This document shows positions 14,639 to 23,196 of a DNA stretch of 64,000 bases, one piece after another. Source of the DNA: Flavobacteriales bacterium (GTDB lineage Bacteria > Bacteroidota > Bacteroidia > Flavobacteriales_F > PHOS-HE28); the NCBI GenBank assembly GCA_013360395.1, contig JABWBQ010000009.1, forward strand, positions 1-64,000, written 5' to 3'. Position 1 is the stretch's first letter; each line of letters starts with the position of its first letter. The notes beneath the pieces were generated by a model. It searched no databases, was not told where the DNA came from, and saw nothing but the letters and a program-made list of their open reading frames with translations. A program made the translations under genes and the position numbers.

Positions 14639-15856
14639 TCAGCGGCGCAGCAGCCGGGTGTGGGCGGTGCCGAGGTCGGTGCGAAGCCGTACGGTGTAGG
14701 TGCCGGGGCCGAGGTCGCCGAGGTCCAGCGTGACCAGGCCACCGCCCACCTCACCCTGCCCCAGGACCAGGCGGCCGGCGGCGTCGAGCACTTCGACCCC
14801 CAGCACACGGGCACCGGCCGCGTCGATGCTCACCCGGCCGTCCTCGGTGGGGTTGGGCCATGCGCGCAAGGTGGCCGCCAGCGGCTGTTCGGCCAGGCCG
14901 GTGGCGCTCACCAGCTCCTGTGTGAAGCTGATGTCGCCCGAGGCACTGCCGCCGAATCCGGTGAACACCAACTGCCACACATTGCCGACCAGGTCCTTCA
15001 CGAAGTAGCTCAGGGAGTCCTCGATCACCCATTGCATGTTCTGCATGTCGAAGGCCTTCCAGCCGAAGCCGATGCTGTTGATATGCGCGCTGAAGGCCGC
15101 AGTGGTCCAGTCGGCGTTGGCGGGCAGCACACCGGTCGCCGCGCTGGCCTCCACGCCTTTGTTCTGCAGTACGCCCGTGACGCCGTAGGGCTGGGGGATG
15201 AAGGCGATGTACTTCACGAAAGTGAGGTCCCAGCTGTCCTTGGCGGGCTCGCGGTCCACCAAGGTGTTGGTCCCCAGGTCCCAGTACACGAAATTCTTGG
15301 TCGCGTAGGCCGATTTGACGATCTGGCCGGTGAGCTCGTCGGAGCCGTCGAGGTTGGCGTGGGTGAAGGTGTAGGTGCCCGTGGCCAGGCCGTCGATGCG
15401 CAGCTTGCGCCACACGCCGGAGCTCAGGTGCACCAGGAAGATGGTGTCCCCGGCCACCACATGGGTGATCATGTTGTAGTTGCCCCAGCCCAGGTCGAAC
15501 TCATCGGCGAAGGGCCCCTGGTTGAGGGCACCGAAGCTCCAGCTGGTGTCGGCGTTGTGCGCGCGGGGCCAGGTGGAGAGGCCGGCGGTGTCCACGTTGT
15601 TCCAGTCGGCGATGGCGAAGGGGCTCTTGACCACCTCCACACCGGCCTTCTGGGTGTTGACCAGGACACTGGCCGTGAAGCCGTCGATCTCGAAGGCCAG
15701 GTCCCAGTTGTCCTTGGGTGCGGTGGCCACCACGCCGTTCTGCAGGCTGTACCACACCTGTTCGGCATAGCCGGGTGCGATGCTCACGGTGACGGCGGTC
15801 TGTGCGGAAGCCCGCGCCAGCAGCAGGGCGGCGGGCAGGAGGAGAAGTGCGCGCAT
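14639..15856 (-). CDS. HmuY-like protein fused to a T9SS sorting domain
   Basis: The 405-aa protein has a signal peptide (MRALLLLPAALLLARASAQ), two HmuY-type segments (DNWDLAFEI near residue 50, DSWDLTFVKY near 210; closing IGFGWKAFDM near 265) and a C-terminal T9SS type A domain (about 325-405: LRAWPNPTEDGRVSI, then GPGTYTVRL). The domain order predicts a haem-capturing protein delivered by T9SS rather than by the lipoprotein route used by its operon partner at 11367-12329. The two share the same bipartite core and are probably paralogues. It is the first gene of the operon, with a -7-like box 23 nt upstream. Confidence 0.78.
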   Translation of the reverse strand: MRALLLLPAALLLARASAQTAVTVSIAPGYAEQVWYSLQNGVVATAPKDNWDLAFEIDGFTASVLVNTQKAGVEVVKSPFAIADWNNVDTAGLSTWPRAHNADTSWSFGALNQGPFADEFDLGWGNYNMITHVVAGDTIFLVHLSSGVWRKLRIDGLATGTYTFTHANLDGSDELTGQIVKSAYATKNFVYWDLGTNTLVDREPAKDSWDLTFVKYIAFIPQPYGVTGVLQNKGVEASAATGVLPANADWTTAAFSAHINSIGFGWKAFDMQNMQWVIEDSLSYFVKDLVGNVWQLVFTGFGGSASGDISFTQELVSATGLAEQPLAATLRAWPNPTEDGRVSIDAAGARVLGVEVLDAAGRLVLGQGEVGGGLVTLDLGDLGPGTYTVRLRTDLGTAHTRLLRR

Positions 15857-18091: not shown

Positions 18092-20271
18092 GTGCGGGTG
18101 TCCCGCACCCTGCTCCCATCCCTGTGCGCCGTCCTGCTCCTGGCCGGCCCGGTGCACGCCACGGAGACCGATCCGCAATGGGCGCGCTACCGCGACACCC
18201 GGCTGGACATGCGCCAGCGGCTGATCGCGCTGCACGAGGTGATCCATGCGATCCGTTCCACCGATGTGGACAGCAGCCGCGCCCTGGCCGAGCGCATGCG
18301 CGCCGAGGCCGTCGTGGCCCGCGACACGCTCATGATCGCGCTCGCCGAACGCGACCTCGGCCTGGCGGCGATCTTCCAGCGGGACGGTGAGCGGGCGCGC
18401 CTGCACCTGGAGCGTGCCCTGGGGCTCTACCTGGCGGAAGGCGACAGCGCAGGCCATCGCGGCGCCGGCGCCACCCTCAGCAGCCTGGGCATGGTGCTCA
18501 AGAACGAAGGCCGGATGGACGAGGCGGTCCGCGCCTACCGCCGTTCCATGGCCGAGCACCGGCTGGCGCACGACGAGGAAGGCACCATGTACGCCCTGAA
18601 CGGTCTGGGGCGTGTGCACGAGATCCAGGGCGCATACGACAGTGCGTTGCTGTACTACGGCAGGGTGGCCGAAGTGGCCGGCCGGCTGGGTGTGGACGAC
18701 ATGGAGGCCGCGGGCTACGGCAACATGGCCAACGTGAACGCCGAACTGGGCCGCATCGGCGAGGCCATCGACCTCACCTACCGCAGCCTCGCCATCATGG
18801 AGCGCATCGGCGACAAGCGCGGCATGGCCACCTGCCTCACCGGTGTGAGCTCCCTGAAAGGCGCGCTCGGCGAGCACGACGAGGCTTTCGCCCTGCAGCG
18901 CAAGGCCCACGCGCTGTACACCGAGGTGGGCTACCGGCAGGGCATGATGACCGCCGGCACCAGCCTGGGGGCGATGCTGCTGGAACGCGGTGCGGTGGAC
19001 AGCGCCGCAATGGTGCTGGAGCACACCGTGACGCTGGTGCGCGAAGCGAACGCGCGCGACCTGATGGGGCGGCCCCTGCGCGACCTTGCCGCGGTGCGCC
19101 GGGCACAGGGCCGCCACGACGATGCGACCACCCTGCTGAACGAGGCGCTGGCCCTGGCCCGTGACCTGGGGGATGCGACCGGCGAGGCGCGCGCCCGCAT
19201 CGGTCTCGGGCTGCTGGCGCTCGACAGGGGAGGCGCGCACGAGGCCACCGCGCTCTGCGCCGAAGCCGAGCGGGCGGCCCGGGCCCACCGTGCGCTGGAG
19301 GAGCGCATCGAGGCGTGCAGCTGCCTGCACAGGGCCCTCAAGGCCCAGGGGCGCGGCATGGAAGCACTGCAGTACCACGAGACCTGGGTGATGCTGCGCG
19401 ACAGCCTGGCCAACGACCGTACGGCCCGCCAGCTCACACGGCGCGACATGCTGCATTCCTTCAACAAACAGCAGCTGGCCGACAGCCTGCGCCATGCCAC
19501 CGAGCTGGGCGCGTTGGAGACCGCACGCACCATCGAGGCCCTGCGGGCCGACCGCAACCGGGCGCGCACCTGGGCCGTGGGCGGTGGCGCCCTGCTGCTG
19601 CTCGTGGGCGGCGCCCTCTGGTTCCGCACCGACCGCAAACGGCGCCGCGAACGCTTCGAGAAGGAGGCCGCCCACCTGGAGACCCAGGCCCTACGCAGCC
19701 AGATGAACCCCCACTTCATCTTCAACGCCCTCAACTCCATCAACGCCTTCATCCAGCGCAACGACCCCGACGCCGCCGGCTCCTACCTCACCCGCTTCGC
19801 CCGCGTGATGCGCAGCGTGCTCGAGAACAGCCGCCACCCCACCGTGCCCCTGCACGACGACCTGGAGACCCTGCGCGGCTACATGGACCTGGAACGCCGG
19901 CGTCTCCAGGAGAAGTTCGACTTCACCATCCACGTGCATCCCGACATCGACCCGCACGAGGTGCAGGTGCCGCCCCTGGTGGTGCAGCCCTTCGTGGAGA
20001 ACGCCATCTGGCACGGCATCACCCACAAGGAAGGCAGGGGCCACATCACCCTCTCGGTGCAACCGCGCGGCTCCCAGCTGCTGTGGACCATCGAGGACGA
20101 CGGCGTGGGGCGCCACGCCCCCAAGAGACCTCCCTGGGCACGGCCATCACCCGCAGCCGCCTCGACCTGGTGCAGAAGCAGCACGGCGGCCAGGCCGGCT
20201 TCCGCTACGTGGACCTGCCCTCCGGCACCCGGGTGGAGGTGGAGATGCCCCTGCTGCGGGACGGGGCGTGA
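18092..20271 (+). pseudogene. TPR-containing LytS-type sensor histidine kinase with an apparent frameshift
   Basis: The gene encodes a signal peptide, a long TPR region (about 60-460), one membrane segment (about 490-507, TWAVGGGALLLLVGGALWF) and a His_kinase/LytS module whose QMNPHFIFN motif has the phospho-acceptor near residue 541; the N-box is PFVENAIWHGI. After DDGVGRHAP the expected C-terminus continues in the +1 frame as SLGTAITRSRLDLV...FRYVDLPSGTRVEVEMPL, ending at the TGA at 20269-20271. One extra C in the C5 run at 20118-20122 would restore one frame (HAPQETSLGTA). As read, the first frame stays open to 21082 and would fuse the kinase to the next small protein. A sequencing error or a recent mutation would both explain this. 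The partner is probably the LytTR regulator at 22441. GTG 18092 or 18098 starts the protein. Confidence 0.75.
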
Positions 20272-20379
20272 GAACGGGGAGAAGGGTGCGCGGGTGAGTT
20301 CGGGGATCCCGCCAGCGGCGAACGCCGTGCGCCATTGGACACACGCCCTTGCCGCGCCGCGCAGTGGAGGGTTGGAACT

Positions 20380-20506
20380 GCTGCGCGTACTCCCTCCCGC
20401 CACTTGCTCCCCCGACCCCGCCACCTGCTCACCGGGGCTCCCCCTCCCCCCCTCCCTGGGGCTTGTTTTGGGTCACCAACGACACGGAACCCCAACGCCC
20501 CAGGCC
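20380..20506 (+). promoter_or_regulatory. Upstream region copy 1 of a duplicated leader
   Basis: The stretch contains C-rich CCCGCCA.TTGCT and CCA.CTGCTCAC motifs followed by TTGTTTTGGGTCACC (from 20463), 36 nt before the ATG at 20507. The same order of motifs recurs at about 22005-22120 before the 73-aa gene. TTGTTTTG matches TAnnTTTG at 7 of 8 positions, so it may be the -7 element of both copies. Confidence 0.5.
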
Positions 20507-21082
20507 ATGACCACCAACGCCACCCTCCGCCAGCTCGTCCTCGCCGCCACCCTGTGCACGGCAGCGGTCCACGCCGAGGAAGCACGCGTGCTCCGCATCC
20601 AGGGGAAGGTGCTGAGCAGCGAGACCCTCGCCGGCGCCACCCTGACGGTGCTGCAGGACGGTGCGGCCTTCACCCGCATGGTGCAGGGCCTGGCACAGTT
20701 CCAGATGGACCTGCCCCTGGGCCATGAATACCGCCTGAGCTTCGAGCGGCCGGGCACCATCGGCAAGGAACTGCTGTTCGACACGCGCCTGCCGGGCGAC
20801 GCACGACCGCCGAAGGACCTCTTTTTCCAGTTCCAGGTGAGCCTGCTGGCCCAGCCGGCCGAAGGTGCGGTGCGTTACGACGGGCCGGTGGGGCTGATCG
20901 CCTTCAACGACCAGGAGGGCGACTTCGGCTACGAGCACCTGCGCACGGCCCGGCTGGTACCGCTGACCGGCCCTGCCGCCGCACCGGTGAAGCGCGCCCG
21001 TCGCGAGGCCGCCCCGTTCGTGGACCCCACGATGGAGCTGGCCGCCTGGGTGGAGACCCGCCGCGCCGAAACCCATCCTTGA
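20507..21082 (+). CDS. Small exported protein with regulatory-like beta domain and conserved tail
   Basis: The 191-aa product has a signal peptide (MTTNATLRQLVLAATLCTAAVHAEE) and a carboxypeptidase-regulatory-like beta domain (about 25-115: RIQGKVLSSETLAGATLTVL, then GLAQFQMDLPLGHEYRL). A basic linker leads to a C-terminal tail APFVDPTMELAAW. This tail recurs as APFTDPTLALAAW in the 73-aa exported protein at 22121-22342, and the two genes also share their upstream sequence. No enzyme motif is visible. It lies between the LytS-like kinase and LytTR regulator and is a candidate output of that system. Function unknown. Confidence 0.7.
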   Translation: MTTNATLRQLVLAATLCTAAVHAEEARVLRIQGKVLSSETLAGATLTVLQDGAAFTRMVQGLAQFQMDLPLGHEYRLSFERPGTIGKELLFDTRLPGDARPPKDLFFQFQVSLLAQPAEGAVRYDGPVGLIAFNDQEGDFGYEHLRTARLVPLTGPAAAPVKRARREAAPFVDPTMELAAWVETRRAETHP

Positions 21083-21105
21083 ACCCCACGACACCCGACC
21101 CACGT

Positions 21106-21717
21106 ATGACGCCCCATCGCCAGCCCGGACCGCCCATGCACCCCTACCTGGAGGCCCTCAAGCACCGCATCAACCGCCATGGCCTGACCTGGCCTTGGAG
21201 CCGCTCGACCGCCGGTGCCGGCGCGGCCGTCCCGCCCTTCAGCGTGATCCGCAAGGCGCTCGACGACCTGGACCGCGACGGCTGGTATCCGCGCCCGTTG
21301 TCCGGGCCCGTGCATGTGCGCGGACAGGTGGAGGGGGTGAACGACCATCGCTGCGCGGTGAGCATCGTCCTGAACGAACGCCTGGCCCAGGTGGTGGACA
21401 CCGACGAGGAAGGGCGCTTCGCTCTGCAGCTGCCTGCGGATGCGGCGATCCGCCTGGTGCTGGTGCAACCCGGACATCTGCCGCGCCTGATCGAGATCCG
21501 TCCCTGGGAAGGCCGGCCCACAAACGACCACAGCAAGCCGATGCCCATCGCGTTGCACGTGATGCTCACCCCACGGGAAGGCATGGCGACCAAGCCCATG
21601 GCCGAGCGTATCACCCTGCTTGACCGCCAAGGCCGCCTGCTGGTGGAGTGGGACCGCGTGCGGGGCACCCAGGAGAACGGCCCGCATCCGGAACCGATGC
21701 TGCGGCGCGCGGTGTAG
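21106..21717 (+). CDS. Hypothetical protein with carboxypeptidase-regulatory-like domain
   Basis: This 203-aa protein starts at the ATG at 21106 (MTPHRQPGPPMHPYLEALK); a TTG overlapping the previous stop (21079) and an ATG at 21136 are alternatives. It lacks a clear signal peptide. Residues about 65-145 form a regulatory-like beta domain (VHVRGQVEGVNDHRCAVSIVL, EEGRFALQLP, IRLVLVQPGHLPRLIEI) similar in layout to the preceding gene's product, suggesting a divergent paralogue. It is probably co-transcribed with that gene. The stop codon is followed 15 nt later by the heptamer repeat. Function unknown. Confidence 0.65.
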   Translation: MTPHRQPGPPMHPYLEALKHRINRHGLTWPWSRSTAGAGAAVPPFSVIRKALDDLDRDGWYPRPLSGPVHVRGQVEGVNDHRCAVSIVLNERLAQVVDTDEEGRFALQLPADAAIRLVLVQPGHLPRLIEIRPWEGRPTNDHSKPMPIALHVMLTPREGMATKPMAERITLLDRQGRLLVEWDRVRGTQENGPHPEPMLRRAV

Positions 21718-21732
21718 GGATCCGCGGGGGCT

Positions 21733-22000
21733 TCCAGCCTCCGGCCTCCCGCCTCAAGCCTCAAGCTTCCAGCCTTCGGCCTCAAGCCTCAAGCTTCCAG
21801 CCTTCGGCCTCAAGCCTCAAGCTTCCAGCCTTCGGCCTCCGGCCTCAAGCTTCCAGCTTTCAACTTTCAGCTTTCAGCTTTCAACTTTCGGCGTTGGCTT
21901 CCAGCCTCCAGCCTCAAGCTTTCAGCTTTCGGCGTTGGCTTCCAGCTTCCGGCTTTCAGCTTTCAACTTTCAGCTTTCGGCGTTGGCTTTCAGCTTTCTG
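21733..22000. repeat. Degenerate heptanucleotide tandem repeat (consensus TYCARCY), about 35 units
   Basis: The array reads as 23 consecutive 7-mers (21733-21893), a 6-mer TTGGCT, 5 heptamers, TTGGCT, 6 heptamers, TTGGCT, then one heptamer and a remnant. The 5' part uses TCCAGCC/TTCGGCC/TCAAGCC/TCAAGCT, including three near-exact 28-bp (4-unit) higher-order repeats at about 21754-21837. The 3' part uses TTCAGCT/TTCAACT. Each 6-mer is preceded by TTCGGCG. The base composition is strongly pyrimidine-biased on the plus strand. Confidence 0.95.
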
Positions 22001-22004
22001 TTCC

Positions 22005-22120
22005 CGGTTACCGCCGCGCCCGCCAGTTGCTACCTCCCGCCCACCAGCTGCTCACCCGGGCTCACGCCCCCCCTTGTCCCCGGCCTTGTTTTGGGTCACC
22101 AACGAACCCCGACCCACGCC
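22005..22120 (+). promoter_or_regulatory. Upstream region copy 2 of the duplicated leader
   Basis: Motifs CCCGCCAGTTGCT and CCAGCTGCTCACC, a C-rich run and TTGTTTTGGGTCACC (from 22086) occur in the same order and spacing as in copy 1. The ATG of the 73-aa gene follows 27 nt after TTGTTTTG. Confidence 0.5.
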
Positions 22121-22342
22121 ATGGCCCGCTCCACCACCCTTCGCAGCCTCCTGATCCTGGTCTCCTTCCTCACCCTGGCCCACGGCACCTTCGCCGCCAC
22201 CCCGCGCAAGGCCGCCAAGGCCCGGCAGGCCCGTACCGAGCGTCGCATGGTGGCCCCCTTCACGGACCCCACGCTGGCGCTGGCCGCCTGGACCGAGCAG
22301 CAGCGCGCCATCCAGGCCTCCACCGTGCGCACGATGCGCTGA
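22121..22342 (+). CDS. 73-aa exported peptide sharing the APF-DPT-LAAW tail
   Basis: The product consists of a signal peptide (about residues 1-25, LLILVSFLTLAHGTFAA), a short Arg/Lys-rich linker (KAAKARQARTERR) and the tail APFTDPTLALAAWTEQQRA. The tail and upstream region match those of the 191-aa protein at 20507, so this looks like the same export and tail modules with the middle beta domain removed. It is too small to be an enzyme. It lies about 100 nt before the LytTR regulator gene. The shared tail and the duplicated leader are the evidence that it is a real gene. Confidence 0.65.
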   Translation: MARSTTLRSLLILVSFLTLAHGTFAATPRKAAKARQARTERRMVAPFTDPTLALAAWTEQQRAIQASTVRTMR

Positions 22343-22440: not shown

Positions 22441-23196
22441 ATGAGCACCCTGAGCGCCGTCATCGTGGACGACGAGCAGCATTGCCGCGACGCCCTCAGC
22501 GGCCTGCTGCAGCGCAAACACCCGGAGATCGAATTGCTGGGCATGGCCACCAATGTGCCCGAGGGCATCGCCCTGTTGAGCAAGGTGAAGCCGAAGGTGC
22601 TCTTCCTGGACATCGAGATGGGCAAGCAGACGGGGTTCGACCTGCTACAGGCCATCGGCCCGGACCGGCCGCACGTGATCTTCACCACGGCGCACGAGGG
22701 CTATGCCGTGAAGGCCATCCGTTTCAGCGCCCTGGACTATCTCCTGAAGCCGGTGGACGCCGAGGAGCTGGCCTCGGCCATCGGCAAAGTGCGGCAGGAG
22801 GAACGCACACCCCAGAGCCCGGACCAGTTCATGGCGCTGCTGAAGAACCTCACCCGCCCGTCCGGAGCGGAGAAGCGCATCGCACTGCCGGTGGCCGACG
22901 GGCTGGAAATGGTGGACGTGGACGATATCATGTACTGCGAGAGCGACAGCAACTACACGGTGGTGCACCAGAAGGACAAGAAGCGCCTGGTGATCAGCCG
23001 CACGTTGAAGGAGTTCGAGGACATGCTGGACCCCACCCAGTTCGTGCGCGTGCACCACAGCTACCTGATCAACGTGAAGCACGTGAAGAAGTACATCCGT
23101 GGCGAGGGCGGAGAGGTGATCATGACCGACGGCACCAACGTGGCGGTGAGCCGCCGCAAGAAGCAGGAACTGATGGACAGCCTGGCCAAGCTGTAG
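22441..23196 (+). CDS. LytTR-family response regulator
   Basis: The 252-aa protein (counting the stop-free frame from ATG 22441) has a receiver domain with acidic residues at 10-12, phospho-acceptor Asp57 in VLFLDIEM and Lys in DYLLKPVD. A LytTR DNA-binding domain (about 150-248) contains DIMYCESDSNYTVVH and FVRVHHSYLINVKHV. LytTR regulators pair with LytS-type kinases; the nearest is the frameshifted gene at 18092. Both genes are preceded by the variant CTACCTTG, which may be a weak -7 element. A hairpin terminator follows. Confidence 0.92.
   Translation: MSTLSAVIVDDEQHCRDALSGLLQRKHPEIELLGMATNVPEGIALLSKVKPKVLFLDIEMGKQTGFDLLQAIGPDRPHVIFTTAHEGYAVKAIRFSALDYLLKPVDAEELASAIGKVRQEERTPQSPDQFMALLKNLTRPSGAEKRIALPVADGLEMVDVDDIMYCESDSNYTVVHQKDKKRLVISRTLKEFEDMLDPTQFVRVHHSYLINVKHVKKYIRGEGGEVIMTDGTNVAVSRRKKQELMDSLAKL

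Follow-up and report, generated by a model that had tools for sequence, protein, structure and literature searches.

A predicted LytTR operator and a candidate regulon of exported proteins at a TPR-LytS kinase locus of a Flavobacteriales bacterium

Pairs of LytS-type kinases and LytTR regulators are common in Bacteroidetes, and literature searches turned up no Bacteroidetes LytS-LytTR pair whose binding site or regulon has been described. The binding site of a LytTR regulator consists of two repeats, each 9-11 nt long, with a spacer of 11-13 nt (PMC4847170), and in the best-studied cases the -35 element follows the repeats at a distance of about 10 bp (PMC6193735). The E. coli YpdA/YpdB system and its yhjX promoter (PMC4847170) resemble the locus described here in combining a LytS-type kinase and a LytTR regulator with two 10-nt direct repeats and an 11-nt spacer. 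The repeat sequence is GGCATTTCAT in the YpdB/yhjX case and CCACTTGCTC here, and the present locus further differs in having a periplasmic TPR sensor, exported or surface targets and a predicted regulon of another size.

The HdrR and BrsR bacteriocin and competence regulons of S. mutans (PMC6193735) are similar in that direct repeats with an 11-13 bp spacer are located just upstream of the promoter and small exported products are encoded at dispersed sites. They differ in that a membrane-inhibitor pair is found there and a kinase-regulator pair here, where the promoter is of the Bacteroidetes type and the signal peptides are ordinary. No bacteriocin-like exporter was found nearby, unlike in the S. 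mutans LytTR systems.

Within the window, that is, the whole stretch of 64,000 nucleotides that was analysed, a TPR-LytS histidine kinase and a LytTR response regulator flank the genes of interest. The kinase (18092-20126, + strand) includes a signal peptide, TPR repeats (Pfam TPR_12), one transmembrane segment, a His_kinase domain (PF06580, E=1.9e-22) and the start of a HATPase_c domain, the end of which is encoded in a different frame (20127-20272, +). The regulator (22441-23196, +), the predicted activator, matches the Pfam families Response_reg (6.7e-18) and LytTR (5.8e-23), so that the flanking genes proposed in the initial annotation were confirmed. Between them are the genes for a 191-aa exported protein (20507-21082, +), consisting of a signal peptide, a predicted transthyretin/CarboxypepD_reg-like beta-sandwich and a conserved tail, and for a 73-aa exported peptide (22121-22342, +), in which the signal peptide is followed by a basic linker and the conserved tail. 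As had been described, both frames are present and have a common tail, APF[VT]DPT[ML]xLAAWxExxRA, along with an N-terminal hydrophobic leader peptide. A 203-aa protein encoded between these two genes (21106-21717, +) was absent from the initial annotation; its gene starts 23 bp past the stop codon of the 191-aa gene and is probably in one operon with it, and hhalign relates the C-terminal part of the protein to the domain of the 191-aa protein (probability 85.8, E=5.4e-6). The gene order is conserved in three relatives (G008, G026, G025) and less completely in three others (G005, G023, G013), while the kinase and LytTR genes stay together in nine (G008, G026, G025, G005, G027, G023, G013, G024, G019). 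Elsewhere in the window (14639-15856, - strand) is a 405-aa exported protein with a C-terminus that by eye resembles a T9SS sorting domain.

Pfam returned no families for the 191-, 73- and 203-aa proteins. The fold predicted for the 191-aa protein is a beta-sandwich of transthyretin type whose tail contains a terminal helix. Foldseek gave weak matches to a human CPD domain (5aq0, E=0.014) and a SusC NTE domain (9hfj, E=0.007), and four of 17 relatives had weak CarboxypepD_reg matches (E>=0.007). The 191-aa protein differs from the CarboxypepD_reg/transthyretin-like proteins (PF13620) in falling below the Pfam cut-off, in having a conserved tail and in being exported as a stand-alone protein.

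In an alignment with three sister genomes (G008, G026, G033), the kinase gene lacks 28 bp within its HATPase-coding region (window 20100-20150, break near 20126). The kinase gene is therefore frameshifted, and the 996-aa frame at 18092-21082, which joins the kinase to the 191-aa protein, is a reading artefact. The cause is either decay of the local system or an assembly error at this position.

The same upstream block before the 191-aa and 73-aa genes, first noted as a 15-mer, held up and is longer than had been noted, as about 110 bp are common to both genes and the similarity runs on through the signal-peptide codons (126 of 169 positions identical over leader and signal-peptide codons; 120 of 168 in the sister genome G008). 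A DNA search with the shared block found four clear copies in the genome, which precede the 191-aa gene, the 73-aa gene, a second 73-aa gene (contig C18) and the gene for a 171-aa exported protein (C87). The 15-mer itself, TTGTTTTGGGTCACC, is located at 20463-20477 and 22086-22100 with one further copy in the 3.68-Mb genome. It was ruled out as a family-specific leader, since it also occurs, without the direct repeats or the rest of the block, before a methyltransferase-like gene at L003 (G000:C105:12158) and L085 (G026:C15:25461) and is absent where leaders read TTGCTTTG. Judged from the sequence, the leader would most simply be an activated promoter, with the 15-mer as its core.

Every leader copy features direct repeats of the type CCACTTGCTC-N11-CCACTTGCTC with a 21-bp period, followed by a -7-like box at a fixed distance. 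Before the 191-aa gene the predicted LytTR operator reads CCACTTGCTC-N11-CCACCTGCTC (20400-20430, +; profile R1 window E=1.2e-17) and the predicted -7 box is TTGTTTTG (20463-20470, +), with its TTT at the fixed distance. Before the 73-aa gene the operator is a degenerate CCAGTTGCTA-N11-CCAGCTGCTC with three mismatches (22023-22053, +; profile R1 window E=2.6e-15), and the -7 box is again TTGTTTTG (22086-22093, +). The two-repeat pattern with at most three mismatches was found three times in the window, two of these at the leaders, against a chance expectation of 0.03; the only other close half-site pair in the window had a spacing of 27 bp. No operator was detected by profile R1 before the kinase gene or the LytTR gene itself in this window. 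The 21-bp period was first noticed by synteny in G005, G014, G023 and G013, ahead of any pattern search, and the genome-wide pattern scans used this spacing. The repeat geometry was 10+11 nt in all sites.

Features outside the search pattern recur at fixed distances from the first repeat in 36 sites, including TTT at +66 to +68 (31-36 of 36) and GC[TA] at +37 to +39, with the start codon at about +85 to +130. In sequence terms, GC[TA] is located about 7 nt past the second repeat and the -7 box 33-36 nt past it. The flavobacterial sigma-A -7 box is TAnnTTTG at -12 to -5 (PMC9723704); the leaders resemble this promoter in having TTTG at a fixed place with an A or T three positions before it (G in 27 of 36 sites; +63 is A in 21 and T in 15) and differ in that the first T is not conserved (6 of 36). 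At -33 the leaders have GC[TA], as expected of an activated promoter, and not TTG. TTG is the -33 consensus of the flavobacterial sigma-A promoter.

Given the domains present, the anatomy of the operator, its co-occurrence with LytTR across genomes, the conserved gene order and the constraint on the tail, we consider it likely that the kinase and LytTR together switch on a regulon of exported proteins dispersed over the genome, and that they do so through the leader, which would serve as an activator-dependent promoter. The TPR-LytS kinase would phosphorylate the adjacent LytTR regulator, and the regulator would then bind the two CCACTTGCTC direct repeats with their 21-bp period. The -33 position follows these repeats after about 7 bp and the Bacteroidetes-type -7 box after 33-36 bp. 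Binding to the repeats would recruit RNA polymerase, and the effect would be activation and not repression.

Two alternative views of the leader were considered. It is scarcely probable that the leader works at the RNA level, like an attenuator or a riboswitch: it precedes the start codon and was first noticed as a leader, but the conserved repeats are upstream of the inferred transcription start, and the conserved features are fixed-spacing direct repeats for which pairing is not needed. The leader could also be the mere trace of a segmental gene duplication with no regulatory meaning, as the leaders and signal-peptide codons of the 191-aa and 73-aa genes are homologous and an identical unit of 439 bp with operator and 73-aa gene occurs twice in G008, 34 kb apart. 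The same repeats and -7 box, however, occur at the same spacing before unrelated families (Hcp, LVIVD, lipoproteins) with differing intervening sequence, and this explanation is extremely unlikely.

The activator reading assigns the operator to this particular LytTR protein; since the genome has 16 LytTR matches, synteny and co-occurrence are the basis for that choice. A pattern scan followed by profile R1, built from 33 sites that all came from LytTR-bearing genomes, was applied to 45 congeneric genomes; every genome named here was assembled from metagenomes. Orthologs of the LytTR regulator were identified in 12 other genomes (73-98% identity). Exact pattern matches were found in 9 of 13 genomes with a close LytTR ortholog and in 1 of 32 without (Fisher p=7e-6), and profile R1 at E<=1e-5 matched in 15 of 17 LytTR-bearing genomes and 1 of 28 others (p=6e-9), an association that shared ancestry could inflate. 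The lone exception was G064, in which the kinase runs off the contig end where LytTR would follow, and two LytTR-bearing genomes, G004 and G067, had weak profile matches only. Five divergent genomes outside the training set (G001, G010, G019, G024, G067) had a match 0.6-2.5 kb from LytTR, and in four of them (G001, G019, G024, G067) this was the best match of the genome (chance about 7e-11); the best match in G010 was 21.6 kb from its LytTR.

It is conceivable, and we consider it unlikely, that the repeats are a real activator site of another regulator, either another of the 16 LytTR matches or an unlinked factor, with the neighbouring LytTR being a bystander that shares the ancestry of the regulon. 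The number of LytTR matches, the distance in G010 and a co-occurrence statistic that ignores kinship would fit such a view. Against it, all 45 genomes have many LytTR-like candidates while the operator occurs only with this ortholog (plus G064), and the best match is beside this very gene in G001, G019, G024 and G067.

Five strong operator copies (E<=2.2e-13) were identified in this genome, located before both window genes (C81:20397, 191 aa; C81:22020, 73 aa), a second 73-aa copy with 79% identical protein (C18:7771) and two exported beta-sandwich proteins (C87:7447, 171 aa; C30:18500, 159 aa). A further copy precedes a 175-aa protein that is MORN-like by eye (C53:6400, E=5e-10) and a weak one an SprB/T9SS-type protein (C90:28924, E=0.002). 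Activation by LytTR would thus switch on the 191-aa protein, the 203-aa protein by read-through, both copies of the 73-aa peptide and the two further beta-sandwich proteins, as well as probably the MORN-like and possibly the SprB/T9SS-type protein.

In relatives the operator precedes 120-aa lipoproteins and choice-of-anchor-L-like, MORN-like and Hcp/TssD proteins, and in G024 and G019 LVIVD proteins with a T9SS tail. Two Hcp/TssD genes each in G027 (L153, L215) and G064 (L211, L212) have the operator-promoter (Pfam 4e-46 for one of the genes), which suggests that type VI secretion tubes are part of the predicted regulon in these two genomes. An exported protein of beta-sandwich type adjoins or closely precedes LytTR in G023, G013, G014, G011 and G001, while G010 and G067 feature a similar short membrane-anchored frame 2.5 kb from LytTR that has a weak operator match. 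The genes downstream of the operator belong to unrelated families and mostly carry export signals. The initial annotation had proposed a signalling-linked family of secreted peptides under a duplicated leader; the signalling link and the control through the leader are supported by the LytTR-operator geometry and by the way the operator tracks LytTR. A family of peptides only was not upheld, because the tail is absent from most predicted members, which are exported proteins of the beta-sandwich, MORN-like, lipoprotein or T9SS type.

The 73-aa family was found in 6 of the 45 congeneric genomes, and a scan of 84,980 species returned five of those six only, metagenome assemblies labelled Flavobacteriales or Bacteroidetes. 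The tail of the family had a pN/pS of 0.13 (0.00 without the window copy), compared with 0.80 for signal peptide and linker. The frame is very probably translated because the tail is under strong purifying selection, and the view of it as a real gene is thereby strengthened. The window copy is the least constrained (tail pN/pS 0.48), and with its weaker tail constraint, three-mismatch operator and frameshifted kinase the local copy may be decaying. Tail-search matches at E 0.01-0.6 (G026:C12, G033:C194, G025:C206, G000:C126, G000:C76) had no leader or convincing tail and were rejected.

The proposal that the 73-aa peptide is the 191-aa protein without its middle domain agrees with our comparison, and loss of that domain is the simplest origin of the gene because the leader, the signal-peptide region and the tail all match the 191-aa gene. 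On the sequence evidence the peptide is best read as the tail of the predicted regulon without its domain; a 191-type gene would have lost its beta-sandwich, and selection would have kept the tail. The extracellular or envelope partner of this tail would most likely be shared with the tail of the 191-aa protein. AlphaFold predicted two helices for the peptide, with a pTM of 0.28 that is too low to be informative. The 439-bp unit of G008:C12 (L091, L092), consisting of the operator, the 73-aa gene and about 100 bp downstream, is duplicated with zero differences; its flanks are unlike and no obvious terminal inverted repeats were seen by eye. A minisatellite with 7-, 28- and 41-bp units occupies 21730-21998 of the window, immediately ahead of the operator of the 73-aa gene. 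The second 73-aa copy on C18 has a similar array in front of it, and none is present there in the sister genome G026.

An extracellular signal that the kinase perceives through its TPR domain, in a positive loop like those of Gram-positive LytTR pheromone systems, is a decidedly unlikely role for the 73-aa peptide. Its position between kinase and regulator, its export signal, its strong tail constraint and its predicted control by the same system would suit that role. Most genomes with the kinase-LytTR pair, however, are without a 73-aa gene, second 73-aa copies are located far from the kinase, and the kinase is of a single-TM TPR architecture and is frameshifted here. With TPR repeats and one apparent TM segment, it is not the polytopic receptor kinase of Agr/ComE-type pheromone systems, and no dedicated peptide processing or export gene was identified among the frames from the kinase to ftsZ. 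A further idea, also improbable in our judgement, is that the tail is an extracellular ligand module. The free 73-aa peptide would then act at a surface receptor, either in competition with the tail-bearing 191-aa protein or as a signal for it, and LytS-LytTR would close the loop. If true, LytTR peptide signalling would have a Gram-negative counterpart here.

The favoured reading, in which LytTR activates exported-protein genes through the leader, provides a predicted operator, a spacing, a promoter and a target list, including Hcp of type VI secretion in two relatives, that were derived from sequence alone. The 73-aa family adds a small lineage-specific exported peptide with its conserved part defined to the residue. 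For this sludge bacterium and its relatives, the analysis predicts the control targets of such a LytS-LytTR system.
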